Origin: Caenorhabditis remanei
Taxonomy: Eukaryota > Nematoda > Chromadorea > Rhabditida > Rhabditidae
Assembly: GCF_010183535.1 (NCBI RefSeq)
Contig: NC_071329.1
Span: forward strand, 4,898,001-4,962,000
Length of the DNA: 64,000 nt
Direction: 5' to 3'
A model generated the notes under the pieces. It saw nothing but the letters and a program-made list of their open reading frames with translations. It ran no database searches and was not told the DNA's origin. The position numbers were made by a program, and so were the translations under genes. Positions within the stretch are counted from its first letter, which is position 1, and each line of letters begins with the position of its first letter. Of the stretch, positions 3,180 through 43,217 are shown in pieces.

Positions 3180-4233
3180 CTATACACAAAATCGAATAAA
3201 TTGTGGTCGAATTAAGACTGTCCCAACAGTTCCGTCGCTTCGACGGATATCATATCCGTCTTTGACCACTATGGGCCCATAAGTCAATTGTTTGGAATGT
3301 CTGACTTGATTCGATGATATTTCGTGATAATTCGTTCCTTTCAATAAAACATCCTTATCCGGAAACCGACCATCAGGATAATCAAAGTTTACGACCTCCA
3401 TTCTTGGGTTCGATCCTCTCATCCAAAATTTCAGAAACTGATTGATCACTTTATTAGTGATAGTTAATGAGCAAACGTATATTTCCTTGCTATTTATCAA
3501 TAACAAGTCATCCAATTCCATTCTCAAAAACGGAGTATGGTATCCGAGAAACAGCACATCCAAGTTTTGAATCAAAATGTTTCTATACATGCTGGGGTCC
3601 TCAAAACTTCGACTGCATGCAAAGAAACGTTTGATGAATGGGAATTGTGTCAACACCATCTGTGCAAATTCCAAACTACAGGGATCAATAAATCTGAGGG
3701 ATTTTATCTCAAATCCTCTGACTGTTTCTATCAGGGAGCTCATATCAACCTCTCTAGCAAACAAAAGTGCGTTCTCTTCAGGGAAAGAGAATATATATTG
3801 GAAATGAGCTAACCACTCTTGGATGCTGAGACCTGGATTTTGGTATTTCACCCGGTTCTGTGGAGGATTAGTGTCACGCATCCCTATTACACGAGCTGGC
3901 ATATAAACTGGAATCGGTTCAGTGCTATTATCTTCCTTTTCCGGATAGAAATTCCACAACATGCGCGACGGGTTGTTCCTGAATCCGTCGATTTGAATTC
4001 CGATGATATTTCCAATTGTCAAATTGATATCATTGATTTTCAAGTTAAGAGATTTGACCACTTCTTTAGTTTTATTGGATGCCAGAGAGAATGAGACTCT
4101 GAAAACAACGATGTTGGAACAGAGAACTTGAGTTTTTGAAAAAAAAAACTCACATATCAACATAATCAATGCTATAAAGCACATGATGTAGTGCCTTTTT
4201 GGGAAGGTAGAGGAGAGAGAAGGTAGTAGACAT
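3180..4233 (-). CDS. F-box/FBA_2 protein, two exons, 332 aa
   Basis: Exon 1 is 4154-4233 and exon 2 is 3180-4098, with a 55-bp intron (GTGAG donor, TTTTCAG acceptor). The splice joins the F-box start (MSTTFSLLYLPKKALHHVLY) to VSFSLASNKTKEVVKSLNLK in frame, which restores a normal nematode F-box of about 45 residues. The FBA_2 domain follows in the C-terminal half, with EWLAHFQYIF, LDDLLLINSKEI and RFPDKDVLLKGTNYHE. The stop is TAG at the codon where siblings have TGG, so two residues are lost at the C-terminus, probably harmlessly. The gene is transcribed away from the split copy starting at 4676 through a shared 442-bp intergenic region. Predicted role: adaptor of an SCF ubiquitin ligase; substrate unknown. 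Confidence 0.88.
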
Positions 4234-4675
4234 GATGAAGAATAAGGGAAGAGTGAGATGGACCTGTCTCGGCCCTGCCTTGGATTAGATGGGAGTGACG
4301 TGGCAAGGAAAAGAAGTCGATCATACATATACTTTGTGTTGTTTGTTTGCGATGCTCTAGAGAGGCTGGGCCATATTTGGCATTACACATCTATTCAAAT
4401 TGTCCTCACACACCAGACCCTTCATTCTTATTGTTGTTAGAGACCTTCCCACGTCACTCCCATCTAACCCAAGACAGAACCAAGACAGGTCCACCTCACT
4501 CTTCCCTTATTCTTCATCATACCCGGTCCCCGCTGCAAGCGCGCTCCATTGACATTGAGTGGTCACTGCCTGTCCCCGGCTACGTCATCATTTATATCCT
4601 CCGTCTCGTTGACACGTCACGTCTTCTAATTGTCCAACATATCGGACCCTCCTCATTCTCCCCTCATTCACTGTC
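4234..4675. promoter_or_regulatory. Bidirectional promoter region of F-box pair 1, inverted-repeat structure
   Basis: The region between the divergent start codons is itself a large inverted repeat. Sequence 4231-4302 (GATGAAGAATAAGGGAAGAG through GGGAGTGACGTGG) is matched in reverse complement at 4449-4520. The same layout occurs between the genes of pairs 2 and 3. This fits a gene pair born by inverted duplication, with both genes carrying the same promoter. Specific factor sites are not identified; TGACGTGG/CCACGTCA motifs recur symmetrically. Confidence 0.6.
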
Positions 4676-6478: not shown

Positions 6479-7585
6479 GTGGAAGAGGGCGGGGGTGAGA
6501 ATCGGTGGGGTGGGGGTTCGAAACCTTCTTATTCGTTTTTGTTTTTTTTGTTTTTTGTATGAACTTTCTAAATGAATATGAAAGGAAATATTGTAAAAAT
6601 TTCGAATGTTCTGATCGAATACGGGGAAAATAGGATCAGTCGGTGTGTCTGTTCTGAATTCAAAAGCTGGTCGTTCTTCCATTTTCCTTCAAATTCAAAT
6701 CGAGCAAGCTAATTTTTGAATTTAAAACTTGCTAAGCACCGCACACGAGGCGCAGCCGAGTACTGCGGAGCCCGCCGGGAGGCGGGGGACGCTAGTCCGG
6801 AGAATAATAATGATAGCAACAAACCAATTCCAGTTTACATGCCAGCTCGTGTAATAGGGATGCGTGAACCAAACCCTACACAGAACCACGTGAAATACCG
6901 AAATCCAGGTCTTAGCATCCGAGAATGGTTAGCTCATTTCCGATATATATTCTCTTTCCCTGGAAGGTACTCACTTTTCTTTAGTAGAAATACATGTAAA
7001 TTTGATTGGAGCTCCCTGAAAGAAACAATCGGAGAATCTGAGATAGAAATGCTCATATTTTACAATTCCTGTAGTTTGGAATGCGCACAGACGGTGTTGA
7101 GACAATTCCCATCTGTCAAACGTTTTTTTGCGTTCGGTCGACGTCTTGTAAACCCCCGCTTGTATAGTAACATTTTGATTAAAAACTTGGATACAATGGC
7201 TCTCGGACACCCTACTTTGTCTTTAAGAATTGAATTGGATGACTTATTATTGATAAATAGCAAGGAAATACACATTCGATCATTAACCGTCACTGATAAA
7301 GTGATCAATCGCTTTCTGAAATCTTGGATGAGAGGATCGAACCCAAGAATGGATTACGTGAGCTTTACTTTTAGTGATGGCCGGTTCCTAGATAAGGATG
7401 CTATATTAAAAGGAACAAATTATCACAAAGTACTATTGAATCAAGTCAGGCATTACAAGAGCCATGAGAGGACCATAGTGGTCAAAGGTGGATACGATAT
7501 CCGTCGAACGGACGGAACTGTCGGAACTGTTACAATTCGACAACGATTCCAAGAACGATTTGTTCTATTTCATGTATGGTGCTGA

Positions 7586-9895: not shown

Positions 9896-10302
9896 GACAG
9901 TGAATGAGGGGAGAGTGAGGTGGACCTGTCTCGGCCCTGCCTTGGATTAGATGGGAGTGACGTGGCAAGGAAAAGAAGTCGATCATACATATACTTTGTG
10001 TTGTTTGTCTGCGATGTCCTAGAGAGGCTAGGCCATATTTGGCATTACACATCCATTCAAATTGTCCTTACACACCAGACCCTTCATTCTAATTGTTGTT
10101 AGAGACCTTCCCACGTCACTCCTATCTAACAAGACAGGTCCATCTCACTCTTCCCTTATTCTTCATCATACCCGGTCCCCGCTGCAAGCGCGCTCTATTG
10201 ACATTGCTATAGGGTGGTCACTGCCTGTCCCCGACTCGTCAGTCTGGTTGCCACGTCACGTCTTCCCACTGGACCCTGCTCATTCTCCCCTCATTCACTG
10301 TC
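9896..10302. promoter_or_regulatory. Bidirectional promoter region of F-box pair 2
   Basis: It separates start codons at 9895 (minus) and 10303 (plus). Both edges carry the same sequence in opposite orientation (ATGACAGTGAATGAGGGGAG beside each ATG), and internal CCTGTCTCGGCCCTG / GACAGGTCC blocks are also mirrored. The organisation is the same as in pairs 1 and 3. Confidence 0.6.
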
Positions 10303-11380
10303 ATGTCCAGTGCCTTCCCTCTCCTCCGACTTCCAAAAAAGGCACTACATCATGTACTTTATAGCATTGATTATGTTGATATGTGAGTTTTTTTTCTCAA
10401 AAATTCAAGTTCTCTGTTCCAACATCGTTGTTTTCAGAGTCTCATTCTCTCTCGCATCCAATAAAACTAAAGAAGTGGTCAAATCTCTCAACTTGAAAAC
10501 CAATAATATCAATTTGGGACTTGAAAATATCATCAGAATTCAAATCGACGCATTCAAGAACAACACGACGCGCTTAATGTGGAATTTCTATCCGGAAGAT
10601 GATAATACTAGCAACAAACCAATTCCAGTTTACATGCCAGCTCGTGTAATAGGGATGCGTGAACCAAACCCTACACAGAACCACGTGAAATACCGAAATC
10701 CAGGTCTTAGCATCCGAGAATGGTTAGCTCATTTCCGATATATATTCTCTTTCCCTGGAAGGTACTCACTTCTCTTTAGTAGAAAAACATGTAAATTTGA
10801 TTGGAGCTCCCTGAAAGAAACAATCGGAGAATCTGAGATAGGAATGCTCGTATTTTACAATTCCTGTAGTTTGGAATGCGCACAGACGGTGTTGAGACAA
10901 TTCCCATCTGTCAAACGTTTTTTTGCGTTCAGTCGGCGTCTTGTGAACCCCAGCTTGTATAGTAACATATTGATTAAAAACTTGGATATGTTGGCTCTCG
11001 GACACCCTACTTTGTCTTTAAGAATAGAATTGGATGACTTGTTATTGATAAATAGCAAAGAAATACACATTCGATCATTAACCATCACTGATAAAGTGAT
11101 CAATCGCTTTCTGAAATCTTGGATGAGAGGATCGAACCCAAGAATGGATTACGTGAGCTTTACTTTTAGTGATGGCCGGTTCCTAGATAAGGATGCTATA
11201 TTAAAAGGAACAAATTATCACAAAGTACTATTGAATCAAGTCAGGCATTACAAGAGCCATGAGAGGACCATAGTGGTCAAAGGTGGATACGATATCCGTC
11301 GAACGGACGGAACTGTCGGAACTGTTACAATTCGACAACGATTCCAAGAACGATTTGTTCTATTTCATGTATGGTGCTGA
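10303..11380 (+). CDS. F-box/FBA_2 protein, two exons, 340 aa
   Basis: Exon 1 is 10303-10382 and exon 2 is 10438-11380; the 55-bp intron has a GTGAGT donor and TTTTCAG acceptor. The ATG at 10303 is chosen because MSSAFPLLRLPKKALHHVLY continues across the splice into VSFSLASNKTKEVVKSLNLK, a typical nematode F-box. A longer unspliced ORF beginning upstream would lack the F-box. The C-terminal half is an FBA_2 domain: EWLAHFRYIF, LDDLLLINSKEIHIRS and RFLKSWMRGSNPRM. Predicted function is substrate recognition in an SCF ubiquitin ligase. It is almost identical to the copies at 1-738 and 4676-7585, so this is the best intact reference for the group. Confidence 0.9.
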
Positions 11381-12657: not shown

Positions 12658-13710
12658 TCAGCACCATACGTAAAATCGAACAAATTGTGGTCGAATTAAG
12701 ACTGTCCCAACAGTTCCGTCGCTTCGACGGATATCATATCCGTCTTTGACCACTATGGGCCCATAAGTCAATTGTTTGGAATGTCTGGCTTCATCCAATA
12801 GTACCTCGTGATAATTCGTTCCTTTTAATATAACATCCTTATCTAGAACCAGATCATCAAAAAATAAAAAGGTCACCAATTCCATTCTCGGGTTCGATCC
12901 TTTCATCCAATGTTTCAGAAATCGATTGATCCCTTTATCAGTGATAGCTGTTGATCGAATGTATATTACCTTACTATTTATCATTAACAAGTCATCCAAT
13001 TCCATTCTCAAAAAAGGAATATCGTATCCGAGAAACAACACATCCAAGTTCTGAATTAAAATGTTTCTATACATGCTGGGGTCCTCAAAACTTCGACTGC
13101 ATGCAAAGAAACGTTTGATGAATGGGAATTGTCTCAACACCATCTGTGCGCATTCCAAACTACAGGGATCCATGAATCTAAGGGATTCTATCTCAAATCC
13201 TCTGACTGTTTCTATCAGGGAGCTCATATCAACCTCTCTAGCAAACAAAAGTGCGTTCTCTTCAGGAAAAGAGAATATATATTGGAAATGAGCTAACCAC
13301 TCTCGGATGCTGAGACCTGGATTTCGGTATTTCACCCGGTTCTGTACATGGTTAGTGTCACGCATCCCTATTACACGAATTGGCATATAAACTGTAATCG
13401 GTTCGATGTTATTATCTTCCTTTTCCGGATAGAAATTCCAAATCATGGGTGACGTAGAATTTCTGAAATCGTCGATTTGAATTCTGATGATATTATCAAC
13501 TAACAAATTGATATCATTGATTTTCAAGTTGAGAGATTTGACCACTTCTTTAGTTTTTTTGGATGCCAGAGAGAATGAGACTCTGAAAACAAAGGTGTTG
13601 AAACAGAGAACTTGAATATAAAAAACTCACATATCAACATAATCAATGCTATAAAGCACATGATGTAGTGCCTTTTTTGGAAGGCAAAGGAGAGAGAAGG
13701 CAGCCGACAT
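12658..13710 (-). CDS. F-box/FBA_2 protein, two exons, 334 aa
   Basis: Exon 1 is 13631-13710 and exon 2 is 12658-13582, separated by a 48-bp intron (GTGAG donor, TTTTCAG acceptor). Translation across the splice gives an F-box (MSAAFSLLCLPKKALHHVLY, then VSFSLASKKTKEVVKSLNLK). An FBA_2 domain follows with EWLAHFQYIF, LDDLLMINSKVIYIRS and RFLKHWMKGSNPRM. No lesion is seen. It is the intact counterpart of the pseudogene at 8844-9895 and is divergently paired with 14124-15198. Probable SCF substrate adaptor; target unknown. Confidence 0.88.
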
Positions 13711-14123
13711 GACAGTGAATGAGGGGAGAGTGAGGTGGACCTGTCTTGGTCTTGGGTTAGATTGGAGTGACGTGGCACGGAAAAGAAGTCGATCACCACA
13801 CATATACTTTGTGTTGTTTGTCCGCGATGCTCTAGAGAGGCTAGGCCATATTTGGCATTACACATCTATTCATATTGTCCTTACACACCAGACTCCTTAT
13901 TCTAATTGTTGTTAAAGACCTTCCCACGTCACTCCTATCTAACCCAAGACCAAGACAGGTCCATCTCACTCTTCCCTTATTCTTCATCATACCCGATCCC
14001 CGCTGCAAGCGCGCTCTATTGACATTGCTATAGGGTGGTCACTGCCTGTCCCCGACCCGTCAGTCTCGTTGCCACGTCACGTCTTCCCACTGGACCGTCC
14101 TCATTCTCCCCTCATTCACTGTC
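13711..14123. promoter_or_regulatory. Bidirectional promoter region of F-box pair 3
   Basis: 413 bp between divergent start codons, with mirrored ATGACAGTGAATGAGGGGAG-type edges and mirrored CACGTCACTCC blocks as in pairs 1 and 2. Confidence 0.6.
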
Positions 14124-15198
14124 ATGTCCAGTGCCTTCCCTCTCCTCCGCCTACCAAAAAAGGCACTACATCATGTGCTTTATAGCATTGATTATGTTGA
14201 TATGTGAGTTTTTTTCAAAAATTCAAGTTCTCTGTTTCAACAACTTTGTTTTCAGAGTCTCATTCTCTCTCGCATCCAATAAAACTAAGGAGGTGGTCAA
14301 ATCTCTCAACTTGAAAATCAATGATATCAATTTGAAAATTGATAATATCATCATAATTCAAATTGACGCATTCAGGAACTCTCCGTCGCAGATGTTGTGG
14401 TATTTCTATCCGGAAAATAATAATGATAGAATCGAACCAATTCCAATTTATATGCCAGCTCGTGTAATGGGGATGCGTGACACAATTCCTCCACAGAACA
14501 TCGTGAAATACCGAAATCCTGGTCTCACCATCCGAGAATGGTTAGCTCATTTTCAATATATATTCTTTTCATCTAAAATTCACTCACTTTATTTTACTAG
14601 AGAAACATGTAAATTTGATATGAGCTCTGTGAAAGAAACGATCGGAGGATCCGAGATAGGAACGCTCAGATTTTATGATTCCTGTGGTTTGGAATGCGCA
14701 CAGATGGCACTGAGACAATTTCCATCTGTCAAATGTTTGTCCGCGGGCAGTCGAGGTCTTGAGGACCCCAGCATGTACAGAAACATTTTGATTCAAAACT
14801 TGGATATGTTGGTTCTCGGAGAGCCTACTACGTCTATCAGAATTGGATTGGATGAGATGTTATTGATAAATAGCAAGGAAATATACGCTTGCTCATCAAC
14901 TATCACTAATAAAGGGATCAATCGGTTTCTAAAACATTGGATGAACGGATCGAACCCGAGAATGGAAGTCGTAAACTTTGATTTTCCTAATGGCCGGTTT
15001 CCGGATAAGGATGTTTTATTGAAAGGAACGAATTATCACGAAATACTATCGAATCAAGTCAGACGTTACAAAAGACATGAGAAGATCATAGTGGTCAAAG
15101 GCGGATACGATATTCGTCGAATGGACGGAACTCTCGGGACTGTTACAATTCGACAACGACTTCAAATACGATTTGTTCTATTTTTCGTATGGGGTTGA
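14124..15198 (+). CDS. F-box/FBA_2 protein, diverged array member, 340 aa
   Basis: Exon 1 is 14124-14203 and exon 2 is 14256-15198, with a 52-bp intron. Exon 1 encodes the same F-box start as the siblings. Exon 2 keeps the FBA_2 landmarks (EWLAHFQYIF, LDEMLLINSKEIYACS, RFLKHWMNGSNPRM) but differs at many residues from the 1-738, 4676 and 10303 group. Differences concentrate in the middle, the region thought to contact substrate. The ORF is intact to TGA at 15196-15198. It is the oldest plus-strand copy here by eye. Confidence 0.88.
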
Positions 15199-15919: not shown

Positions 15920-16113
15920 ACTAGTAGAAACTAGTATACATTGCCTCGTCTATTTCTTAATCGGCTCATTATCCACACTGATTATGGAAACGTGTGGACA
16001 GCAAATAGCTCAACTTTGTGGTGCTGGTGGTCTGAACTTGGAAAAGAAGCCGACACTTGTCCGTCAACTCTCACTATAAATATCTTCTTTTGTGTTACAA
16101 TAACACTAATTCT

Positions 16114-16839
16114 ATGCCCATGTCTACATCATTTGGTCAGACAACACGCCTAACTCCTGCCTTTCGCTTTCGTTTCCCCTCCCAGACTACAATTATCGGT
16201 GCTACGCAATCTGGCAAAACTACTCTATTACGTAGTATTATTGAAAATTCGAGCCGTACATTTGAAGAACCAATTTACAATATTTTTTGGTTTTATGGTG
16301 TTGACACTCCTGGAATCCCAAGATATTTACCAAATCTTCGAGCAATTGAGGGAATACCAGACATTGAGCTACTAAAAAGGCACAAGGACGAGAGAAACAT
16401 TGTTGTATGTGATGACTTGATGAATTTTTTCGCCAGGGACAAAAAATCAATGCACCTATTGAATGACCTGTTTTGTTTGTATGCTCACCACATGAATTGT
16501 GCAATCTTTAATTTGGTACAATCTGCATTTGCACTACCACCCACCACTCGAAACAATAGTACATATTTGATTTTGATGCGAAACCTTTCTGATGCGGCAC
16601 AAATTAAAAACTTACTTGTACAACAATTTGGTCAGAAATGGCGTGGAGCTTTCGAAGCATACCAGGATATAATGTCGGAACCCTATCAAGCAATGCTAAT
16701 AAATAATGACCCCTTGGCACACTCGAGTATGCGAATCCTTTCAAATTTCACAATGCACAGTCTCTCAAACCCCGAGAAAGAACTGCAAGTCCAATGGAGC
16801 GCACACGCATACCCCAGCCGGCGGCAATTTTTTTTTTAA
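16114..16839 (+). CDS. Maverick/Polinton-type packaging ATPase, 3' end interrupted
   Basis: The protein has a Walker A (GATQSGKTT), a Walker B ending in two acidic residues (NIVVCDD) and a downstream FNLVQS segment. This order is typical of the FtsK/HerA-like DNA-packaging ATPases of Maverick/Polinton elements (A32-like). ATG 16114 is preferred over 16057 because the following residues lead directly into the ATPase; a CTATAAATA box lies at about 16074. From 16756 the frame reads into the inverted repeat of an inserted transposon, adding about 27 foreign residues before TAA at 16837. Beyond the insertion the original frame would end ten codons later (stop at 20554-20556). No polymerase B, integrase or capsid gene of a Maverick is visible nearby, so this is an isolated remnant or a domesticated gene. 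Old virus-like copies of this kind are known in nematodes. Confidence 0.75.
   Translation: MPMSTSFGQTTRLTPAFRFRFPSQTTIIGATQSGKTTLLRSIIENSSRTFEEPIYNIFWFYGVDTPGIPRYLPNLRAIEGIPDIELLKRHKDERNIVVCDDLMNFFARDKKSMHLLNDLFCLYAHHMNCAIFNLVQSAFALPPTTRNNSTYLILMRNLSDAAQIKNLLVQQFGQKWRGAFEAYQDIMSEPYQAMLINNDPLAHSSMRILSNFTMHSLSNPEKELQVQWSAHAYPSRRQFFF
16756..16789 (+). repeat. Left terminal inverted repeat of the RAG1-like transposon
   Basis: Begins CACAGTC, 6 of 7 matches to the recombination-signal heptamer CACAGTG. After a 12-bp spacer comes the A-rich nonamer-like AGAAAGAAC. It also supplies the accidental tail of the ATPase reading frame. Confidence 0.85.
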
Positions 16840-17240
16840 CGTTCGAATGTTGTATTTTTCACTCTTCTTTGTTCTAATATTGATTTTTCGTGTATTTTTT
16901 CACTTTTCTGATAAAGTTGTTGATATTTCAGTACAATCATCGTGCAAAATCAGGTTCAAGGCAGATTCGAGACTCGCGAAATGGCGGAAAGATGCAATTT
17001 TTCCCGAAAATTATTTTTCTGGCGGTTAGTTAGCGATCGGAACGGGTTATTCTTCTCCGATGAAACTTTTTCAGGGCCGAAACACGAGTCACATCATCAA
17101 TACTCAAGATATTTCAACGAATTAATGCGACATTTGGCTAGCGGTTAGAAAGAATAAACTTAAAATACTTCTCCGCCCGTTATTTTCAGATTTCGTCGGA
17201 ATTCTCTTGCTGGAAACAATAATTTATTGGAAGAAAATTT

Positions 17241-19766
17241 CTATTCCTCTTTGTACCAAGAAGAACCAATATCAAAAATAAGATTGAAATGGGATAATCG
17301 ATCGACGATAAGAGTAGCTTTCTGAATCGGATCCCGAACAGCGGCAAATCGAACGTTGAGCCTGTTGAAGATAGCATGCAAGCTTTCGATTCCTTGCTCA
17401 GTCACTCTTCCCCAACTACGATAACGCTTCAGATATGGAATGAGATGTGACGACAATAAATGAAGCTTTGGAGTCACAGAAGCATCTGGCTGAGCTTCGC
17501 GAAGATTTCCAACAAATCTCTCCATAACTCTCTCAATTTCCTCAATCTCGTCATCATTTTTCACTGAATTCGAGGCGGCCGACATCAATGTAGCAAGATC
17601 CAACATCACTGATCGCATCAAATCGATTTTTACTTTTTCTGAAGCGTTTGGAGCTCTTCTGCTGTTAGAAGTGAAAACCGCAAGGACTTTATCAATGGAA
17701 GAATGACGGAGAAACTTTCGAGCCTGGTTCCCTGTCAAATCTTGGTACCAAATTCTACTGTCACATCCGATACTTCTGAGGGCAGCTTCGAGAAGTTGAC
17801 GAGTCGACACTTCACTTCGAATACGGGAGCCTTTAAGATGTTGCTCCAATTTCAATCGCTCATTATCAGCAACTTCTAATATATCCTGAGCTTGCAGGAG
17901 CTGCTCATTCACCGATTTCTGAATTTCAAGGGCCAGAGAGAGACGATCGGGAATCGACGGAATCATTCCATGACGACAATCCAAGCAAACTGCATTCGAT
18001 TGGTCCATCAGAAGTCGCTGCTCTTCCGTAATGTAAAATGCGCAAACATCGTGTACGGCAGCTTTACACGAAGTGCACTGGAAGATAGAAGAATCCCGAA
18101 AAGAAGACTTTTTAGAAGATCCAACAATACAAAACGAAGATGTGCAGTGAGAAGAATTCTTTTGTTTTGGCTTTGTAGTCTTGCAGTTTTTTTGAATGGT
18201 AGTCACGGCATCGTTAATTCTTTCCAGTGAACTTTCTAGAGAATCAACTAAATTAGTTGTTTCTTCTGTTTCCAAAACCAATTTCTTCAAGTCTTTCTTT
18301 AGTTGTTTCAGATTTGCTGGAGATGATGAGCCAGTGTCAAAGTTGATAGCCATTGCAATGAGCCAATCGATACAATAATACTGACAAATTCCAAGAATTG
18401 TGTGGACTCCAGGAGGGCCAGCGTTCAAAGGATCAACATCGAGAAGAGGAACGCCGGTTTTTTTGAGATCGGAAAGAGTACGAATTTCTCCGGAAAACTC
18501 AAAATCGAAATTCTCAAGACTGGCAGTGTCGGACCCATGTGTAGACCATGCTAAATTGCACACATAGCAAGGAGTTTTGGAGTTTTGTCCTGCGTGACCG
18601 TACATTGCCGACACAAACTTGCAGTCTCCCAGTGGCTTCATGACAACAGCTTTTTCAACATTATTGCTTCCATCAAAATATCGAACACTATGAAGTTGGT
18701 TTAATTGATCGAAAACCGATGCAAAATTCTGTTTCAAAAGGGAATGACTGTCGTTGCCTGTGTAAAGGCCAAGGAGAAGTACTGCATGGGGATCATTGGG
18801 AATGTCGACGTTTTCTAAGACGATGACAAGTTTGGTTGTGTCAGAACCCTTGTCTCCACCGACTCCAATAACGATGTTGTCTTTTGTGCCATCATCGAAA
18901 CGAAGACGTTCATGCCGACTCAACATTTCCAATCGTTTGGAGAGAAGTTCGTGGACGTCATTGGCCTTTACAAGCGCTGTTTCTGCCATGATTTGCTTCC
19001 CACTTCGTGATGGTTTCATTACATTCTGACGTTCAAATGTGTAATATTTGGAAGTTGCGAACGTCTTCTTTACTTCTTCAATTTGATGGCGAGATGCGAA
19101 AATGTCAATATGCAAATGTTGTTTTGTAAATTGCTTGAAATCTTTCAAGAATCCATCTGAAAGCTGATGCTTGACAACAGTGAAAAAGCTATTCCAGGGT
19201 GACAATTTCAAAGTAAACTTCAAATCCTCATCTTCGTCGGCCATCTTCAAGAAGTCATACAAAAAAGCGTCAACGTTGAGAGGTCCCACAAATGAAGAAA
19301 TCATTTTAATAATTCTTTCATAACGATCTATTTTAGTTTCGTTGGTCCTAATCAAATTATATTGTTTCAGACATTTTCCGCGGCTCGGCGACTCTTCGAC
19401 CAGTGTGTCTACTCGTTTCTGCAGTTGGTCAGCTCTAGATTGGAGATAGGTGCCTTCCTTCTCTTTTTCGCGAAATGAGGATAATAATTGCTCTTTTTCA
19501 TGATTTTTTTCAGCAAGAATAACACATTTTTCACTTTTTATATGTTGTATCTCAATCTCTGCATCTTGAAGTTTCTTGTTTGCCAATTCCAGGTTCTCTT
19601 TCAGCTCTTCGACCTCTTTTTTCAAATAGAATACTTCTTTTTTCAGTTTTGGAAACATAGTTTCTTTTTCTGCTTCGTGCTCAATCTCGTGGTTTTTCGC
19701 AGCTTTGAAAAGAGACGCCTGTTTTGCGCGTTCTATTCTTGCAATTTTATTTCGGGAAGGTGCCAT
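17241..19766 (-). CDS. RAG1/Transib-like transposase with internal PHD-like finger, 841 aa
   Basis: Single-exon ORF. The N-terminus (about residues 1-130) is a charged coiled coil, not a RING. The core reads: D305 in GGDKGSDTTKL, D381 in PLGDCKFV, a C400-x2-C403 pair, H769-x4-H774, then E790 in VTEQGIES. In mouse RAG1 the corresponding residues are D600, D708, C727-x2-C730, H937-x4-H942 and E962. The D708-to-C727 distance (19) equals D381-to-C400 here, and both zinc-pair spacings match exactly. Between the CxxC and HxxxxH pairs lies a Cys/His cluster at about 541-597 (CTSSFC, CTSC, HDVC, CLDC) that fits a C4HC3 PHD finger. Predicted role is cut-and-paste transposition of the surrounding element, by DDE chemistry. 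The frame is open and all landmark residues are present, so it may be functional. Family assignment is by motif spacing only; no alignment search was run. Confidence 0.82.
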   Translation of the reverse strand: MAPSRNKIARIERAKQASLFKAAKNHEIEHEAEKETMFPKLKKEVFYLKKEVEELKENLELANKKLQDAEIEIQHIKSEKCVILAEKNHEKEQLLSSFREKEKEGTYLQSRADQLQKRVDTLVEESPSRGKCLKQYNLIRTNETKIDRYERIIKMISSFVGPLNVDAFLYDFLKMADEDEDLKFTLKLSPWNSFFTVVKHQLSDGFLKDFKQFTKQHLHIDIFASRHQIEEVKKTFATSKYYTFERQNVMKPSRSGKQIMAETALVKANDVHELLSKRLEMLSRHERLRFDDGTKDNIVIGVGGDKGSDTTKLVIVLENVDIPNDPHAVLLLGLYTGNDSHSLLKQNFASVFDQLNQLHSVRYFDGSNNVEKAVVMKPLGDCKFVSAMYGHAGQNSKTPCYVCNLAWSTHGSDTASLENFDFEFSGEIRTLSDLKKTGVPLLDVDPLNAGPPGVHTILGICQYYCIDWLIAMAINFDTGSSSPANLKQLKKDLKKLVLETEETTNLVDSLESSLERINDAVTTIQKNCKTTKPKQKNSSHCTSSFCIVGSSKKSSFRDSSIFQCTSCKAAVHDVCAFYITEEQRLLMDQSNAVCLDCRHGMIPSIPDRLSLALEIQKSVNEQLLQAQDILEVADNERLKLEQHLKGSRIRSEVSTRQLLEAALRSIGCDSRIWYQDLTGNQARKFLRHSSIDKVLAVFTSNSRRAPNASEKVKIDLMRSVMLDLATLMSAASNSVKNDDEIEEIERVMERFVGNLREAQPDASVTPKLHLLSSHLIPYLKRYRSWGRVTEQGIESLHAIFNRLNVRFAAVRDPIQKATLIVDRLSHFNLIFDIGSSWYKEE

Positions 19767-20487
19767 TTTTCTGAAATTGTTATAACTAAACTATGTTTAA
19801 AGTTGATTTCACACTAACCAATTGGATGGAATCCTGTTCTCTTGGCACGGAACCCGTATTATAATGTACCCAATTGTTTGAACTTCTGGAAAATCATAGA
19901 TTTCAGCAAATAATTGAGATTTCACATCACATAAAACGAGATTTTTGAACAAAAAACAATAAAATTTCACATAATTAATGGTTAATGTGATGAATATATC
20001 AAGAAAAATCAATTATTCTTCTAAAAATCATGATTTAATGGCTCTTGTGTACTCCGTTTGCTCAATTTTTGAAAAAAAACCCGTGCGTCACGTTGTGGAA
20101 TTTTCAGCTTCAAACTAACCGCAATTCACCATTTTTTAATAGTTCTATCTCAATTATAGCTCAAAAAATTCGTCATATTTTTATCTACATTTCTGTAGGA
20201 CGGTTCACTTTTTAACCCAATATTTTTCCAGAAATCGTGAAAAAACTGAATTTTCAGGCCAAAACTTCGATATTGATAAGCTCCTTCATTTCTGTTCCAA
20301 TAATGGTATTCTTTTCTTCGAAGTGTTGCTTTTGCCGTTTTCTTGTCTTGTATTGGACGATTTTCACTATTTACTTCCTTTATTGTTTGTAATTTATAAA
20401 AAATCAAAATTTCCAGTTGAAAAATTAATAAAAAATTATTTCCGACTACTGTAGCGCGCGGCCTTTGCGCTCCGTTGAGAACTTTCG

Positions 20488-20521
20488 CTTGCAGTTGTTT
20501 TTCGGGGTTTGAGAGACTGTG
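20488..20521 (-). repeat. Right terminal inverted repeat of the RAG1-like transposon
   Basis: Reverse complement begins CACAGTCTCTCAAACCCCGA and has AAAAACAAC at the position 12 bp after the heptamer. It matches the left end at 32 of 34 positions. Confidence 0.85.
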
Positions 20522-20526
20522 CAATG

Positions 20527-34328: not shown

Positions 34329-37300
34329 ATGAGCATCACTCATGATGATATTAAAAACTGGGAGGAGATTATATCGACTCACCAGGAAGATTATGAAAAA
34401 TTCTTGAAAGCATCTTTCCAAGCTTTGAAAGCCGTACCAAACCCAACCACAGAGCCACAAACCCCAGTTCAAGATTTTCTTGCAGGCTATGCCGTATTCA
34501 TGGCCTCTGAAGTAGAGACCATTAAACCGAAAGACCAGCTGTACAAGTCACAACTTGCGACAGTCCTGGAAAACATCCACATGACTCCTGTAGGAACTCT
34601 CCTAACAGAGACCGCAAAACAAGCTTCGATCAAAATCAACAAAAAAGATCGAGAGATCACAAAATTGGTAGGTGATATTGAAGCTAGAATGGACAAAAGG
34701 CATGAACATTTAAACACACTTGCAGCAACCCACAAGGTGAAAGGACTAGCGGATACTTCGTACAGTATCCGCCCAAGAAGGTCACAAACCAACGTCGAAC
34801 TGAAGACTGACTTCATTCGACCACCAGGAAACAATCTCCAAGTAAGTAGTTTTACAACCGAAACAAGACCAACCATGCTTCAGTATAAGCATGTAAAGCT
34901 ACCAACTTTTAACGGCAACATATCAGAATGGTCAGCATTTTATATGATATTTAAGCCAACCGTTTTAGAAAACGACGAATATACAGATGTTGAAAAACAC
35001 AACATCTTAAGAAACCATCTAGTAAACGAACCAGCTGACTTGATTAGAGCGTACGATCCAGATGGCACGCAACTTGCCACAGCAGTTAAGCGACTAGAAG
35101 CCATGTACGGCTCAAAAGAAAAACAATATGACTATCTTTGGAATAGGCTAAGTGAAGTCCCAATGGCACGGGATAGCCCTAGAAGTTTGAGAATCTTACA
35201 TAACGAGCTCCATGCGATAATTAATAGTTTAAGTAAACATGGTAGTATCGAAACTCAAAATTTCCAATCGGTTATTAAATCGAAAATTCCAAGAAACATT
35301 TTGATTGAAGTCCTTAGGACAAAACCTAAAGATACCTCCGCTATTTTGGAAGCGCTAGATATCATCATCACGATTGAAGAATCAGCGCAGCGGTCGGAAA
35401 TGAAAGTGAATGAAAAAGAAGATAGAAATGTCTTCTCCGTGAGAAAACCACAGCAGAACAAAAAGTGTCGATTCTGTCAGAGAACAAACCACACGTCAGC
35501 TGAGTGTAAAACAGTCGCGTCGCTAGAAGATAGAAGAGAGTTCATAAAAATGAATAACCTATGCTTCAATTGTTTAAATAGCGGACATAGACTAAGCGAA
35601 TGCAAATCTTCAGAATGTAGAAAGTGTCAAGTGAAACACAATCAGGCAATATGCCACAGAAACCCAAACGTTGTTAGAAAAAACAACTTTCAGAAAAATC
35701 CTCCCACCTACAAATCCCAGAATGAAAATTATAGAAGAAATAATTTCAGCAACCAGAACAATGGTCACCAGTCCAGCAATGCTGCTGCGTACCAGCAAAG
35801 AAACCAAGGAACCCAAGGACAAGGGTATCAGCAGCGAAATCAGTCGCAACCAGTGAATCAGAGAATTCAAAACAATGGAAACCAAACCAATGGAAACCAA
35901 TCCAACAACGGATACAACAAGAGAAACCAAGGTCAGTCAGCACCCCAGAAAAGTTTAAAAACCAGAAATTACCAAGTAAATGCAAATAAGACGTCACTAA
36001 TGGTAGTGAACGCACCAATCGTAGTAGGTGAGGAAATTGAGAAAATTCCGGTACTCCTTGATACAGGAGCAGACCAATCATTCATTTTGTCCAGTTTTGC
36101 AGAAAAGGCAAAAATGGAAGTTCTAGAAAGAAACGTAGAAATTGACCTTTGTGTGTTCGGCAAAGACCCAACCTCAATAATTTCGAATGTAGTCAAATTT
36201 GAAATAATTACGAACGATGATTCGGTAATTAAAGTAGAAGCCTTGACAGTACCAGATATAACAGATCTTTTTGAACCGATCAACCTAACGCATGAAGATA
36301 AAAAATATCTTGAAAATGTTAACGAGAAAACCGTTAATATCACCAGACCTGAGAAAGCAGTAGCGCTCTTAGGATTAGATGTATTTTGGGACCTCATCAC
36401 TGATGAAGGCAAGAAAAAATTACCATCGGGTAAATTTATCATTCCAACACATATTGGACCTTTAGTATGCGGAAAAACTGAAAGATCCACTTCTAGTATG
36501 CATGCATTAATTGCAAGAATTAAAGACTCCCAGGAAGAACATTTTACCGAAAATGACTTCCAAGAATATTTCGAGATAAGCAACATAGGTATCACCGATA
36601 AAATTTTCGATCCAACTAATGAGGAAATCATTGTGGAATTTGAAAATAAGGTAGAAACTAACTCAGAAACTAAAAGAATTATAGCTCCTCTTACATGGAA
36701 AGAAGGGCAAAGAGAGAATTTAGCTAACAACTACGATGTGGCAATCTGTAGAGCTAGACAACTAGTACGCACCTCTAAAGGAACAGAGGCATGGCAGAAA
36801 CTTGAAGAAAATTTTGATACTATGGAAAAAACGGGTATTATCGAAGAAATCGATAATGATCCCAACTTAGGATATTACATCCCTTACGGGCTAGTATTCA
36901 ACAAAAGTAGTAATACAACCAAAGTAAGAACCGTTTTTGACGCATCTAGCAAAAAACGAGGAGAGATTAGTTTAAATAATGCTCTTCATCAAGGACCATC
37001 ACTTATTCCTGATCTTCAAGGAATTTTGTTAAGATTAAGACAAGGTAAATATCTCCTAGCCGGAGATATAGAAAAAGCTTTTCACGCCATCGAAGTCAAT
37101 GAAAAAGACCGAGATGCACTAAGATTTATTAGAGTGAGAGACCCAGAAAGGCCACTCCACCCAGATAACATTAGACTAATGAGATTCAGAAACCTCCCAT
37201 TCGGAGTAAACTGTTCACCGTTTTTACTGTCTATGTCAATTTTGTACGCAGTAAGACAAGCTAATGTTCCCGAAAACATAGTCAAAGCTATTGAATCAAT

Positions 37301-40300
37301 GTGTTACGTAGATAACGTATTCATGCTAACAGATGACTTCAATGAATTACCAAAATTTTATAACCTTTTGAAAGAATTTTTTGGTAGCATTGGTATGAAT
37401 ATCAGAGAATTTTGTGTAAATCACCCAGTAAACTTCATAAAGGAAGAAGATAAAGCCCAAAATCTTGAAAACATAAAAATGTTAGGTTATATCTATGACC
37501 TAGAAAATGATACTTTCGAAGTTAGAAAACCTAAATTAGTCATAACCGGAAAAGGAATTCCTCGTATGAATAAGAAAAAAGCAGTAGGAGAAATCACGAT
37601 GATTTTTGACCCTACCCAATATTTTGCACCCTTGTATTTACAAGGAAAAAATATTCTTAGACAAATTTCTGACCATACTATAAAATGGTTAGATTACGTA
37701 AGCGACGATATAGTCGAACAGATAATTTCATATAGACAAAAAATCGAGAATTCAACATTAAAATTTAGACGTAACATCCCGAATCTCAACAGCCGTAAAC
37801 CGGTTCAACTTGTCGTCTTCACGGACGCCTCGGAACATACCTACGGCGCATGTATCTATTTGAAGATAGAAAAACCTGATTTGAAAGGTCAGTTTGACAT
37901 CCATTTACTTATTGCAAAACAAAGAATCGCACCAAAAACAAAAACTCTTACAATCCCTAGATTGGAACTATTAGGTATACTAATAGGCGTAAGACTTCTT
38001 GACTATACCATTAGAGAAATGAATTTGAATATTGAGAAAATTGAGTTATTTTCGGACTCAACCATAGCTCTCGCTCAGATCAAAAACCATCCGACTACAA
38101 AAGGCGAAAAACACGCTCAATTTGTAGATAATAGATGTTTAGAAATTTGGAAAACCCTTCAAAACATTAAAGCAAAGAACGATCAAACGGAAATTTCACT
38201 TTCACATGTTCCGACAGATCAAAACCCCGCAGACCACATAACACGTGGTTGCGATTCCGAAGAAGAATTGAGAAAAACTAATTGGTTTTTTGGACCAGAT
38301 TGGTTACAAAACGATAACCATGTAAATCACCCTTGTAAAAACGAGGATAATCGTTTAATCATTGATAAATCAACACCAGTAGAATTGAATGTTATGACTA
38401 TCCAAGTCAAAAATCTTTCCGAAATTGAGAATAGAATTATTCCTCTAGAGAAAATCAACAACCTTGAGAAAACTAAACGAATCATGTCGTACGTACTACG
38501 GTTTTTGAAAAATAGAATCTATAAAAAATTGAGTAAACCTAGCAAAACAAAGCTAGAACGTAACTTTCCTGAACTTAAACACCTTCCGAATGAATTTTGC
38601 GGAGTGGTGAAACTAGAAGAATTAAATTTAGTCATGAAACTTTTGATTCGAAACAATCAATTAGTTTATAAAATTGAAGAAAATCCTAAGGAAAACCAAT
38701 TTTTAGACAAAGATAACATCAATTCACCTTCTGATCAGATTGTATATCAACACAACCGAATCATTGGTAAAAACAAACTACCAATAATTGAAACTAAGTC
38801 TAGATTAGCAAATCTTATAATTCAAAAAATTCATAGAGAAAACCTACATGTAGGTCCAATGACTACATTAGAAATTGTTCTTGAATCTTACGCTGGCACT
38901 CGTTGGAGAGCAGCTGTAAAGAAAGTTTTGGATAATTGTTCTATTTGTAGAAAATCTAACAACCATCCATTTAGAGAAGCTCCACCTGGAAACCTTCCAG
39001 AAAGACGTACTACTGAAAGTAGACCCTTCCAACACATAGGTGTAGATTTTATGGGTCCATTTAAAACTTATATAAGAAATTCGAATGATATTGAAAAATG
39101 TCATATCGCACTTTTCACTTGTACGACTACTAGGCTAGTACATCTTGAACGTGTACCAAACCTGTCTACCGACGAATTTCTTCTCGCACTCTCTCGTTTT
39201 ATGAGTAGAAGAGGATACCCTGATTCGATAACATCCGATAACGCCGCAACATTTAGATTGACGGCGGAGATATTAGATAGACATTCCGAAAGAGAAGACG
39301 ATTTCTTAGCGGAACTAGCTTTCGAAAAAATTGACCAATTGAAAACCAATGTTTTAGAAAAAGAAATGACAAAAAAAGGTATCAAATGGTACTTTAATAC
39401 CGCATTAGCTCCTTGGCAAGGAGGCTTTTATGAACGACTCGTAGGAGTTGTTAAAAAAGCACTAAAACATAGTTTAGGCGAAAGCCAACATAGAGTTAAA
39501 GACCTCGAAACTATTATGGCTGAATGTGAAAGTTTAGTAAATAGACGACCTTTAACTTACATCGACGAGGATAGTGAAGACTGTAAAGTCTTGAGACCTA
39601 TAGATATTATTACACCAGGATTGTATTTTTCAATCTTTGATGATAACGGTCTAAGAGATGAGTACTACGAATATACTCAAAATTTTAGAGAAGTTCAAAA
39701 ACATATCAAACGTTTTTGGAATATTTTCGTAAGAGATTATCTTAAGCAAACCAAAAATTTTCAATCTGTCGCTCAACCAAACCGAGCTCATTCAAATTTG
39801 ATAAAACCCATTTTAGGAGAAGTAGTCCTTCTCGTAGACGAAAACGTCCCCCGCGGAAAATGGAAAATGGGAATTATAACTGAATTACTAAAAGGTAGAG
39901 ACGGAGAGATACGATCTGTTCGCGTCCGTACTACGCAAAAACGTAAGAAGAGAGATGGCACTCTCCCTTACAAACCTTTCAAGATTCAAGAGATAACGCG
40001 ACCGTTGCGATTAGTCATTCCATTAGAATTGAGACCTCAACCAAAAGAAGAGGACGAAAAAATTGAAACAAAAACCGTAACTGTAAATCTGGCTAGAATA
40101 AAAGAGCCAAAATTTAAGCAAACTGAGAAACGAATGTTTCGCACAGTTATCGAAACTCAAAACGAAGATTTCAGAAAAAATCTCCAAAGAAGACCAAAGT
40201 TCAGTCTTTGGAATATATGGACCATCCTCCTCATGATGTGCATCCTTGCAACGACAGCATCAGCAAATATGCTACAAAACCTGAGTCCAAACCAGCATAG

Positions 40301-43217
40301 TAATGAATACACTACGACCTTACCGACACCAACCACGGAAATGGTCCCACCAACATTAACTACCTCACCGATCGTTACCACCACTATCGAAGTGACTACG
40401 ACTCGGAAGAAAATTACTACAGAAACTACTGTGAAAACAACCCCGTCGACTACGGTAACAACTCCGTCGACTACGGTAACAACTCCGTCGACTACGGTAA
40501 CAACTCCGTCGACTACGGTAACAACTCCGTCGACTACGGTAACAACAACAACAACAACCCTACCGACTACGGTGACAACTCGAAAGCTTACAACCAGAAC
40601 AACCCCTTCAACTACTCAGAGTACCACAACTGAGACGACCAGTCTGTCCACCACGACACCGTCTCCTACGACAACCGTTTTTCAAACCACAACTACTCCT
40701 GCTCCAATTTTGGAAAAAATTGTAGATGGAATTAGACCAAAACCAGAAGGACAGCGAAGATCAGTAACCACTACTGAGCCTCCAACACAACTCACTACGG
40801 TCCCTGCAACAAGGCCCACTACTGTCCCTACGACGAAGAAGATCACGACCACAGTGTCTACAACCAGCCCACCAGAAAACTCACTTATGAAAACTCTCCA
40901 GGAAATTCACGACAGTAAGTCTCGTTTAGATTGTACGAAATATGGTGTAAATCTAATAGACGAAGAAAACATGACCAACCACTCTAATTCAGTGTGTACC
41001 GAAAATTGGTGTGATCACACAGTTTTGACTAAAAAGAAAATTACTGAAGTTTTGATCCCTCCTGAATTTACTTTGCATAAGCATAGAGTAGTTTGGAAAA
41101 AATCGATAGGAACCCAGTACATAATTATTGAGAAAACTTGTCCACCAACGGACTATTGCTGGAAAGCATTGAAACATTTCGATTGCATTTTATGCACAAG
41201 ATTTCTGTTCAACCCTCAGTGTCACCCAAAAACAACCATAAGTATTGTAATCCTTTTAATAGCAATCGTCATGAAAATAATTTCACTCTTTTGGCATAGA
41301 AAGAAATTATGGAAACTATTCATACTTATGTGTTGCTGGTGCAATTTTTGTGAAAAAATTAGTAGATTCTTTTCTGCAAAGAAAAGAGACGAGAATCTCG
41401 AAATAGAAGAAATAGAAATGGTTCCATTAAGGAAACCAACAGTGACTCAAAGACTAAATAATGTTAGAAATTGGAGACATAAATTTAGAAGAAATGGAAA
41501 CTATTCCAGATCTGAACCTAGTACTAAGACTATGAAAAGAAGTTATACAACTTCCGCTCAACCAAGAAAGCAACTTTTTGAAATAAGTACTGTTGTAGAA
41601 AATGGTGTAGAAGTTTTGAAAATTCAAAAAACCGCATCTAGGACACCGTCCCCCTCTATGTTAGCCATTGCAACTATCTGCCTTTTAATCGCCTCGGCGG
41701 CGGCAGACGTGTGTGACGAAACTTTCCCTATCACACACGAGGAAACCACGTGCAATGAACATGGCATTTGTCGTATTGAGAAAACGGAAGATATCTTCTT
41801 TACACCGCAAACCAAAACTATCTGTCTACAAGTCGTATCTCAAAAGAACGTTATTTTGAAGTTCAAATTAACAGTCGATCACCACTTTCGGAAATGCCAT
41901 AAAGGCCCAATTTTGTTTACTAAAAACGTTACCGTACATGCCGATAGCGCTAAAAGGTGCCACGGTATGGGAGAATGTGTAGATAGGAAATGCCTAGATG
42001 TAGGACCTAACTCCAAACTCAGTGAATTCCCAGAAGGAAATAAGTATCCAGGGCATACATACTGTTCTAGCAGTTGTGGAGGCTTATGGTGCAAATGCTT
42101 ATTACCTACTGAAGGATGTCTTTTTTATAGAACTTATGCAGTCCCTACGACTGACGATAAGTTCCAAATCTATTCTTGTGAAGCTTGGTCAAATGCTATA
42201 AATTTTCAAGCAGAACTGACCCTCGACAATCAAAAAATTGAACAAGTCTTTCTAATTCAAGAAGGTGACGACTACCAAATCAATTTTAAATATGGTCAAA
42301 ATAAGGACCAAGAAATTGACATCAAATTGAGATTACTGACAATCACAGAAGAAACTGGCTTAAGTATTTTAGGCAAAAAATTTATCCAAAATAAGGAAAA
42401 AATTGCTTTAGCTTCAATTTCGAACGAAGTTTTTCCTTTAGAATGTTTTGAAACTGGTGCATGTAACTATAGAGAAACTTGTTCATGCAACCTAGGAGAA
42501 GCAGAAGCACTTTGCGTTTGCAAAGTCCCTGATCTATACAAAATTTTAGATGACATTGATCATAATCTACCAGTGATAACCGAAAGATATCACCTAGGTA
42601 CCACCCCTGATAACATTCCTACCCTTAGGACAAAACATAGCAATTTCCATATTCAAGTAATCATGGAACAAAGTTATAATGTTAGCGTGACTGAATCAAA
42701 AATTGACTGTAGTATTGAGAAGACTACCCCGTATACAGGCTGTTATAATTGTCTCAAGGGCGCCAGCCAAAACGTCACGTGCAAATCTAAAGAACCGACA
42801 CACGCTAAAATTAGCTGCGATAACGGAGAATTCGTAGACATTTTGACCTGCGATAAAACCGGAATCGTAAATGAAATTCATAGGAAATTTTCAAAATCTA
42901 TCCTAACTGGCGTTTGCGCAGTTACTTGTGGAACTAAAAATAATTCTTACAAAATAGAAGGAACACTGACATATGTATCCCATACATCATTATTCGAATA
43001 TCTGAACCAAGTACTCCACTCTGAAAAAAGTATTTCAGAAATCCACCCGTGGCACATCCCTGATGTATGGACACTATGGAACAATATCACTAAGGGACTT
43101 ATCCCTATCGTCCTCGCGATCGCAGGGATGATCATCTCTTCAATCCTTATATACTTATGCTGCATCCCAACTGTCACAGCATGCTTAAGTAGCAGAAGAC
43201 GCCATATCCGGCGTTAG
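34329..43217 (+). CDS. Gag-protease-RT-RNase H-integrase-envelope polyprotein, 2962 aa
   Basis: A single uninterrupted ORF. Gag: DUF1759-like region at about 190-340, zinc knuckles near 379, 412 (CFNCLNSGHRLSEC) and 430, then a Gln/Asn-rich linker to about 543. Protease: LLDTGADQSF near 577. Reverse transcriptase: GDIEKAF near 912 and YVDN at 993-996 in place of YVDD. RNase H: FTDAS near 1163, with later FSDS. Integrase: His/Cys finger near 1500 (HRENLH, CSIC), then D in GVDFMG (about 1571), D in TSDNAA (about 1636) and E in FYERLVG (about 1700). Envelope: hydrophobic signal-like segment at about 1958-1980, Thr-rich mucin-like stretch to about 2180, membrane segment at 2301-2324, second signal-like segment at 2441-2460, a Cys-rich ectodomain resembling phlebovirus G2-type fusion glycoproteins, and a final membrane segment at about 2924-2947. 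Replicates and integrates the element; envelope could allow particles to enter cells. Nothing is broken. Confidence 0.92.
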   Translation: MSITHDDIKNWEEIISTHQEDYEKFLKASFQALKAVPNPTTEPQTPVQDFLAGYAVFMASEVETIKPKDQLYKSQLATVLENIHMTPVGTLLTETAKQASIKINKKDREITKLVGDIEARMDKRHEHLNTLAATHKVKGLADTSYSIRPRRSQTNVELKTDFIRPPGNNLQVSSFTTETRPTMLQYKHVKLPTFNGNISEWSAFYMIFKPTVLENDEYTDVEKHNILRNHLVNEPADLIRAYDPDGTQLATAVKRLEAMYGSKEKQYDYLWNRLSEVPMARDSPRSLRILHNELHAIINSLSKHGSIETQNFQSVIKSKIPRNILIEVLRTKPKDTSAILEALDIIITIEESAQRSEMKVNEKEDRNVFSVRKPQQNKKCRFCQRTNHTSAECKTVASLEDRREFIKMNNLCFNCLNSGHRLSECKSSECRKCQVKHNQAICHRNPNVVRKNNFQKNPPTYKSQNENYRRNNFSNQNNGHQSSNAAAYQQRNQGTQGQGYQQRNQSQPVNQRIQNNGNQTNGNQSNNGYNKRNQGQSAPQKSLKTRNYQVNANKTSLMVVNAPIVVGEEIEKIPVLLDTGADQSFILSSFAEKAKMEVLERNVEIDLCVFGKDPTSIISNVVKFEIITNDDSVIKVEALTVPDITDLFEPINLTHEDKKYLENVNEKTVNITRPEKAVALLGLDVFWDLITDEGKKKLPSGKFIIPTHIGPLVCGKTERSTSSMHALIARIKDSQEEHFTENDFQEYFEISNIGITDKIFDPTNEEIIVEFENKVETNSETKRIIAPLTWKEGQRENLANNYDVAICRARQLVRTSKGTEAWQKLEENFDTMEKTGIIEEIDNDPNLGYYIPYGLVFNKSSNTTKVRTVFDASSKKRGEISLNNALHQGPSLIPDLQGILLRLRQGKYLLAGDIEKAFHAIEVNEKDRDALRFIRVRDPERPLHPDNIRLMRFRNLPFGVNCSPFLLSMSILYAVRQANVPENIVKAIESMCYVDNVFMLTDDFNELPKFYNLLKEFFGSIGMNIREFCVNHPVNFIKEEDKAQNLENIKMLGYIYDLENDTFEVRKPKLVITGKGIPRMNKKKAVGEITMIFDPTQYFAPLYLQGKNILRQISDHTIKWLDYVSDDIVEQIISYRQKIENSTLKFRRNIPNLNSRKPVQLVVFTDASEHTYGACIYLKIEKPDLKGQFDIHLLIAKQRIAPKTKTLTIPRLELLGILIGVRLLDYTIREMNLNIEKIELFSDSTIALAQIKNHPTTKGEKHAQFVDNRCLEIWKTLQNIKAKNDQTEISLSHVPTDQNPADHITRGCDSEEELRKTNWFFGPDWLQNDNHVNHPCKNEDNRLIIDKSTPVELNVMTIQVKNLSEIENRIIPLEKINNLEKTKRIMSYVLRFLKNRIYKKLSKPSKTKLERNFPELKHLPNEFCGVVKLEELNLVMKLLIRNNQLVYKIEENPKENQFLDKDNINSPSDQIVYQHNRIIGKNKLPIIETKSRLANLIIQKIHRENLHVGPMTTLEIVLESYAGTRWRAAVKKVLDNCSICRKSNNHPFREAPPGNLPERRTTESRPFQHIGVDFMGPFKTYIRNSNDIEKCHIALFTCTTTRLVHLERVPNLSTDEFLLALSRFMSRRGYPDSITSDNAATFRLTAEILDRHSEREDDFLAELAFEKIDQLKTNVLEKEMTKKGIKWYFNTALAPWQGGFYERLVGVVKKALKHSLGESQHRVKDLETIMAECESLVNRRPLTYIDEDSEDCKVLRPIDIITPGLYFSIFDDNGLRDEYYEYTQNFREVQKHIKRFWNIFVRDYLKQTKNFQSVAQPNRAHSNLIKPILGEVVLLVDENVPRGKWKMGIITELLKGRDGEIRSVRVRTTQKRKKRDGTLPYKPFKIQEITRPLRLVIPLELRPQPKEEDEKIETKTVTVNLARIKEPKFKQTEKRMFRTVIETQNEDFRKNLQRRPKFSLWNIWTILLMMCILATTASANMLQNLSPNQHSNEYTTTLPTPTTEMVPPTLTTSPIVTTTIEVTTTRKKITTETTVKTTPSTTVTTPSTTVTTPSTTVTTPSTTVTTPSTTVTTTTTTLPTTVTTRKLTTRTTPSTTQSTTTETTSLSTTTPSPTTTVFQTTTTPAPILEKIVDGIRPKPEGQRRSVTTTEPPTQLTTVPATRPTTVPTTKKITTTVSTTSPPENSLMKTLQEIHDSKSRLDCTKYGVNLIDEENMTNHSNSVCTENWCDHTVLTKKKITEVLIPPEFTLHKHRVVWKKSIGTQYIIIEKTCPPTDYCWKALKHFDCILCTRFLFNPQCHPKTTISIVILLIAIVMKIISLFWHRKKLWKLFILMCCWCNFCEKISRFFSAKKRDENLEIEEIEMVPLRKPTVTQRLNNVRNWRHKFRRNGNYSRSEPSTKTMKRSYTTSAQPRKQLFEISTVVENGVEVLKIQKTASRTPSPSMLAIATICLLIASAAADVCDETFPITHEETTCNEHGICRIEKTEDIFFTPQTKTICLQVVSQKNVILKFKLTVDHHFRKCHKGPILFTKNVTVHADSAKRCHGMGECVDRKCLDVGPNSKLSEFPEGNKYPGHTYCSSSCGGLWCKCLLPTEGCLFYRTYAVPTTDDKFQIYSCEAWSNAINFQAELTLDNQKIEQVFLIQEGDDYQINFKYGQNKDQEIDIKLRLLTITEETGLSILGKKFIQNKEKIALASISNEVFPLECFETGACNYRETCSCNLGEAEALCVCKVPDLYKILDDIDHNLPVITERYHLGTTPDNIPTLRTKHSNFHIQVIMEQSYNVSVTESKIDCSIEKTTPYTGCYNCLKGASQNVTCKSKEPTHAKISCDNGEFVDILTCDKTGIVNEIHRKFSKSILTGVCAVTCGTKNNSYKIEGTLTYVSHTSLFEYLNQVLHSEKSISEIHPWHIPDVWTLWNNITKGLIPIVLAIAGMIISSILIYLCCIPTVTACLSSRRRHIRR
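40434..40560 (+). repeat. Tandem repeat encoding a TTVTTPS mucin-like tract
   Basis: About six 21-bp units (ACAACTCCGTCGACTACGGTA) follow one another in frame inside the envelope part. They encode a Thr/Ser/Pro stretch likely to be O-glycosylated. Units are nearly identical, so the copy number is probably variable. Confidence 0.85.

Follow-up and report, generated by a model that had tools for sequence, protein, structure and literature searches.

A complete, probably recently mobile DUF1280 transposon with a predicted RAG1/Transib-type core in Caenorhabditis remanei

The element and its transposase

The stretch of Caenorhabditis remanei DNA analysed here (64,000 nucleotides of contig NC_071329.1, positions 4,898,001 to 4,962,000, hereafter the window) contains at 16756-20521 a transposon of 3766 bp, which is flanked on both sides by CAATG and most of which is occupied by a single uninterrupted open reading frame (ORF) of 841 amino acids on the minus strand. 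Its 34-bp terminal inverted repeats (TIRs) start with CACAGTC and are identical to each other at 32 of 34 positions (Table 1). Length, repeats, perfect duplication and protein were all found as described in an earlier sequence-only reading of this DNA. The protein matches the Pfam family DUF1280 with 266 bits against a cut-off of 25, and we consider it very likely that the element is a complete, probably recently mobile cut-and-paste transposon with a RAG1/Transib-type core, belonging to the DUF1280 (Chapaev-related) branch of the CACTA/Mirage/Chapaev/Transib (CMCT) group.

With up to 3 mismatches allowed, the window contains two matches to the initial 18 bp of the TIR, one at each end of the element (shuffled mean 0.05), and the whole 34-bp TIR occurs 318 times in the genome (160 + 158), compared to 0 + 0 for a reversed-pattern control. 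A scan of viral contigs with the first 18 bp gave 0 matches. The left end of the transposon falls inside an ORF (16057-16839) that matches the poxvirus-A32-type packaging ATPase (E 1.4e-06), which we take to be of the kind present in Maverick/Polinton elements.

The positions of the residue series D, D, CxxC, HxxxxH, E proposed from the sequence were right, and the residues are conserved across the aligned proteins. D305 (in the context GGDKG), D381 (in GDCK), C400, C403, H769, H774 and E790 are kept in 17 of 17, except that D305 is replaced by a gap in P0011 and P0012. The distances from D381 to C400 and C403 (+19 and +22) are the same as those from D708 to C727 and C730 of RAG1, whose residues were numbered manually along the PDB chain, and the protein contains the DDE motifs with C(2)C, LH and H(4)H. 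In the fold search, the predicted structure of the transposase matched the RAG1 and HzTransib folds strongly. Together with the secondary structure and the alignment, this points to a RAG1/Transib-type core with D, D, C-C, H-H and E in order, in which an RNase H catalytic domain (D305, D381, E790) is predicted to be interrupted by the zinc-ligand region C400, C403, H769 and H774; these ligands would be expected to bind zinc. The RAG1/Transib-like fold and the RNase H fold anticipated by the sequence-only reading were in this way supported, the latter by the fold match and the order of secondary structures in the model. A coiled coil is predicted N-terminal to the core. No RING match was found in the protein at E <= 1 using Pfam, and an NCBIfam search gave nothing relevant.

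Table 1. Coordinates of the transposon features in the window
Feature	Position	Strand	Basis
Left target-site duplication CAATG	16751..16755	.	Read from sequence; exact 5 bp at 31/32 distinct genome end pairs
Left TIR, 34 bp, CACAGTC start	16756..16789	+	End comparison and genome pattern count
Transposase ORF, 841 amino acids, Pfam DUF1280	17241..19766	-	ORF call; Pfam; fold match to RAG1 and HzTransib
E790, predicted third catalytic acid	17397..17399	-	Position check and alignment
Helical hairpin insert, residues ~481-650	17817..18326	-	Secondary structure of two models
PHD-like zinc finger, residues 541-597	17976..18146	-	Conserved ligands; weak fold evidence
D381, predicted second catalytic acid	18624..18626	-	Position check and alignment
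DUF1280 (PF06918) match, residues 142-361	18684..19343	-	Pfam E 2.4e-79
D305, predicted first catalytic acid	18852..18854	-	Position check and alignment
Right TIR, 34 bp	20488..20521	-	End comparison
Right target-site duplication CAATG	20522..20526	.	Read from sequence

Copies, target-site duplications and selection

In the C. remanei genome, 88 candidates yielded at least 54 scored protein matches, and there are at least 46 DUF1280 matches. End pairs, recognised by their ends alone, were sampled at 80 loci of this genome, which yielded 32 distinct pairs. An exact 5-bp duplication was found at 31 of them and an exact duplication of 3, 4 or 6 bp at none; at the exception, L038, the pentanucleotide CAGCT is displaced by one base. 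Most pairs (29 of 32) span 613-789 bp and represent short non-autonomous copies, and the remaining three span 2376, 3766 and 4557 bp, the longest being a copy with one short copy nested inside and otherwise ~98% identical to the window element. Two full-length copies missed by the pairing script, at L076 and L077, were read by eye and carry the duplications CACTG and CACTA, respectively. Further copies with 5-bp duplications that differ in sequence from copy to copy support the mode of insertion put forward in the sequence-only reading.

The six stretches around larger copies (L075-L080) were also scanned for other ends. L079 harbours a 38%-identical copy of another family, whose ends CACGGTATT are identical to each other at 20 of 24 positions and whose 5-bp duplication is CTCTG. 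No candidate was detected in L077 and L078, and those of L075, where one end of the copy is truncated, and L080 had no convincing duplication. One L080 candidate with a 4-bp match (AATT) was discounted, as its flanks are reverse complements of each other and were read as the interior of a longer inverted repeat. L076 (610-2027) harbours a 1418-bp element, delimited by ends CACAGTACCCCGCGAC and the duplication AGACC, which is nested in the terminal part of a related transposon copy and may represent a further non-autonomous family with 5-bp duplications.

Besides the window ORF, intact ORFs are found at no fewer than two other genomic locations, L002 and L003. The ratio of non-synonymous to synonymous divergence (dN/dS; Nei-Gojobori, Jukes-Cantor) over the whole ORF was 0.23 for the window versus L002, 0.25 for the window versus L003 and 0.16 for L002 versus L003, and the transposase ORF is under purifying selection. 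Over the helical hairpin described below, the ratios for the same pairs were 0.10, 0.10 and 0.22; the finger by itself contains few changes (10, 4 and 8). Synonymous divergence of the window ORF from L002 and L003 is ~0.8 over the N-terminal 140 codons and declines along the ORF to ~0.06 over the final 191, which suggests mosaic copies formed by recombination or gene conversion. From the near-identical copies and intact ORFs, this complete element is inferred to have probably been active recently.

A PHD-like finger and other features of the window

Three protein searches (16, 7 and 7 matches), the first two limited to ~8000 candidates, identified at least 18 distinct relatives, from C. remanei, C. 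brenneri, C. nigoni, C. japonica and Caenorhabditis sp. 36, plus single proteins of two echinoderms, Asterias and Lytechinus, and two without organism name. In viral contigs, 33 stretches fit a pattern for relatives and none was confirmed as a relative. The Asterias protein has RING matches, all under the Pfam cut-offs, in agreement with the RING-bearing Chapaev subgroups of PMC4411706 (here and below, statements on published work refer to the available portions of the papers). The record of one relative is already titled 'Zinc finger PHD-type'.

The sequence-only account of the protein stood as regards the core residues and left unmentioned a second conserved region, a PHD-like finger located on the helical insert. 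Its residues are spaced C-x4-C-x17-C-x2-C-x4-H-x2-C-x18-C-x2-C (C4HC3 ligands), and the complete set of eight ligands is found in 14 of the 15 nematode-type rows of the alignment (P0009 lacks the last two) and in neither of the two echinoderm rows. A looser pattern matched 15 of 19 proteins, all except P0009, P0015, P0016 and P0017, and was also found at 21 of the 30 loci with protein matches (L001-L030, several overlapping). In the variant finger of L007 (via the longer stretch L079), the spacer between two cysteines is shorter by one residue, and the finger of L028 contains a stop. As the finger is found across divergent copies of this genome, it is not peculiar to the window element. By motif order it lies between H455 and G679, which are 224 residues apart, compared to 56 residues between H795 and G851, their counterparts in RAG1 (hand count).

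The model of finger and hairpin has a predicted local distance difference test (pLDDT) score of 86.1. The top 5 Foldseek rows for the finger model are PHD chains, with MLL3 PHD6 first (best E 0.30, probability 0.94), and none reaches E <= 0.001; no PHD chain was among the 50 rows listed by VIA-align. The family profile matched the KMT2D PHD with an E-value of 0.005, and 4 of 17 family members matched Pfam PHD at E <= 1, the best (0.0024) being under the Pfam cut-off. The matches being weak, the finger is named only "PHD-like".

The PHD pattern of invertebrate RAG2L is Cx4-7Cx14-16Cx2-4Cx4Hx2Cx11-18Cx2C (PMC7204232). It is strictly fitted by 2 of the 19 proteins (P0010 and P0018), and of the other 13 proteins with a finger, 10 depart from it by one residue in one spacer and 3 in two spacers. 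Spacings are similar across PHD fingers generally, and the likeness is therefore taken as a lead only. Many readers of H3K4me3 carry a tryptophan in their PHD finger; since residues 535-605 of the window protein contain none, we do not regard chromatin reading as demonstrated. The finger on its helical arm may contact chromatin or a protein partner. That the nematode DUF1280 transposase has its own chromatin reader, with the PHD role of RAG2 taken over in one protein, is an unlikely proposal, the boldest form of which is homology to the RAG2L PHD. If that were true, the partnership of RAG1 and PHD would be older than the separate RAG2 gene.

Elsewhere in the window, an open frame of 2962 amino acids at 34329-43217, with Pao peptidase, reverse transcriptase, integrase zinc domain and Phlebovirus_G2 fusion-glycoprotein matches, is by its sequence a BEL/Pao retroelement with an envelope-like domain. 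Two adjoining open frames at 50665-53776 with endonuclease and reverse-transcriptase matches represent a retrotransposon without long terminal repeats (non-LTR), possibly interrupted. An ORF at 10214-11380 is F-box-associated (FBA_2), and by eye it has lookalikes at 13-738, 3180-4328, 6716-7585, 12658-13545 and 14035-15198, which together make up a tandem cluster.

Alternative readings and comparison with known systems

By analogy with RAG1 and HzTransib, the transposase would pair two CAC-starting ends, nick at the CAC and then probably form hairpins on the flanking DNA, and the ends would be joined to the target with a 5-bp stagger, which would give rise to the 5-bp duplications. The hairpin chemistry of a DUF1280 transposase is thus conceived from these relatives. 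The short copies with the same ends were probably moved in trans by the same or a closely related enzyme.

Several results weigh against this reading. The active site D305/D381/E790 is placed by predicted fold and residue order, and the PHD assignment depends on ligands and weak matches. A single-sequence PDB search with the protein returned no RAG1. In the profile search, coiled-coil proteins (E from 0.0026) and PHD fingers ranked ahead of RAG1L (E 0.085), with no HzTransib among the rows listed, and the hhalign comparison of the profile with human RAG1 gave an E-value of 0.011 and a probability of 3.9%. Because of these weak sequence matches, the link to RAG1 rests on the fold match, the residue order and the published grouping. 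In the one strain covered, there is no evidence of present-day movement.

In print, DUF1280 was equated with Chapaev transposases in 2014 and placed together with RAG1 in clade II (PMC3985635). Transib, TransibSU, Chapaev and Chapaev3 form the Transib superfamily, in a 2015 tree whose legend lists C. elegans without stating the clade (PMC4411706), and the CMCT group comprises EnSpm, Mirage, Chapaev, Transib and others, with 2-5-bp duplications (PMC12730594). Chapaev-1 and Chapaev-2 are named families of C. elegans (PMC6873666, PMC7917558). The claim of the sequence-only reading that a nematode member would be new and the system undescribed is not supported in the light of these accounts, which also led us to reject the idea that this is the first RAG-like element of nematodes.

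Alternatively, the element could be an ordinary nematode Chapaev, with 5-bp duplications and a finger that are normal, already catalogued traits, for example in Repbase. The C. elegans families, the listing of C. elegans in the 2015 tree legend, the presence of the finger across divergent copies and the relative already recorded as 'Zinc finger PHD-type' speak for this possibility, which we nevertheless find somewhat doubtful. The hallmarks given for Chapaev are 5'-CAC/GTG-3' ends and DDE with C(2)C, LH and H(4)H, with duplications of generally 3-4 bp (PMC4079192); a CHAPA zinc domain and, in two subgroups, RING are described (PMC4411706), and the available Chapaev literature names CHAPA, RING and C2H2 domains and no PHD. 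Among open-licence PubMed Central papers, as far as their available text goes, no DUF1280/Chapaev element with a PHD finger or a 5-bp duplication was found; nor was a printed account of Chapaev in C. remanei found among such papers.

A true Transib or RAG-like (RAGL) element rather than a Chapaev relative would account for the 5-bp duplications, the RAG1/Transib fold and the CAC ends, but is made very improbable by the DUF1280 membership, the weak RAG1L match with none listed for HzTransib, and the additional domains, as canonical Transib has no identifiable domain beyond the core (PMC4411706). Moreover, no RAG2-like kelch/PHD gene was detected: at E <= 1, none of the four other element ORFs of at least 80 amino acids (uninterrupted ORFs only) matched kelch or PHD. 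A domesticated host gene or dead relic, which the intact ORF under purifying selection might recall, is scarcely credible in view of the intact ends and duplication, the different duplications at different copies, the hundreds of related ends and the intact ORFs of L002 and L003.

The element combines a protein of DUF1280/Chapaev type with 5-bp duplications as in Transib and RAG, traits kept apart in the available literature, so that Chapaev and Transib would not be distinguishable by the length of the duplication alone. A PHD-like finger in a transposase with a predicted RAG1 fold is a case for asking whether PHD chromatin reading recurs in RAG-type transposition, and with hundreds of matching ends in the genome of a laboratory-model genus, activity is testable.

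The element resembles Chapaev in its DUF1280 domain, its CAC...GTG ends and its DDE residues with C(2)C and H(4)H, and differs in its 5-bp, instead of 3-4-bp, duplications and in a PHD-like finger without RING match, a separation based on published descriptions and not on C. elegans Chapaev sequences. With Transib it shares the 5-bp duplication of its family, whereas its end heptamer is CACAGTC, the Transib end consensus being CACWATG, and a coiled coil and PHD-like finger are added. Unlike in RAG1/RAG2 and RAGL (ProtoRAG), the finger is part of the RAG1-like protein itself, the core is preceded by a predicted coiled coil and no RAG2-like ORF was found. RAG1-type elements in nematodes were known already; this one differs from printed Chapaev in duplication length and from described relatives in its built-in PHD-like finger, and we file it as a Chapaev-related DUF1280 transposon that is not a canonical Chapaev, Transib or RAGL.
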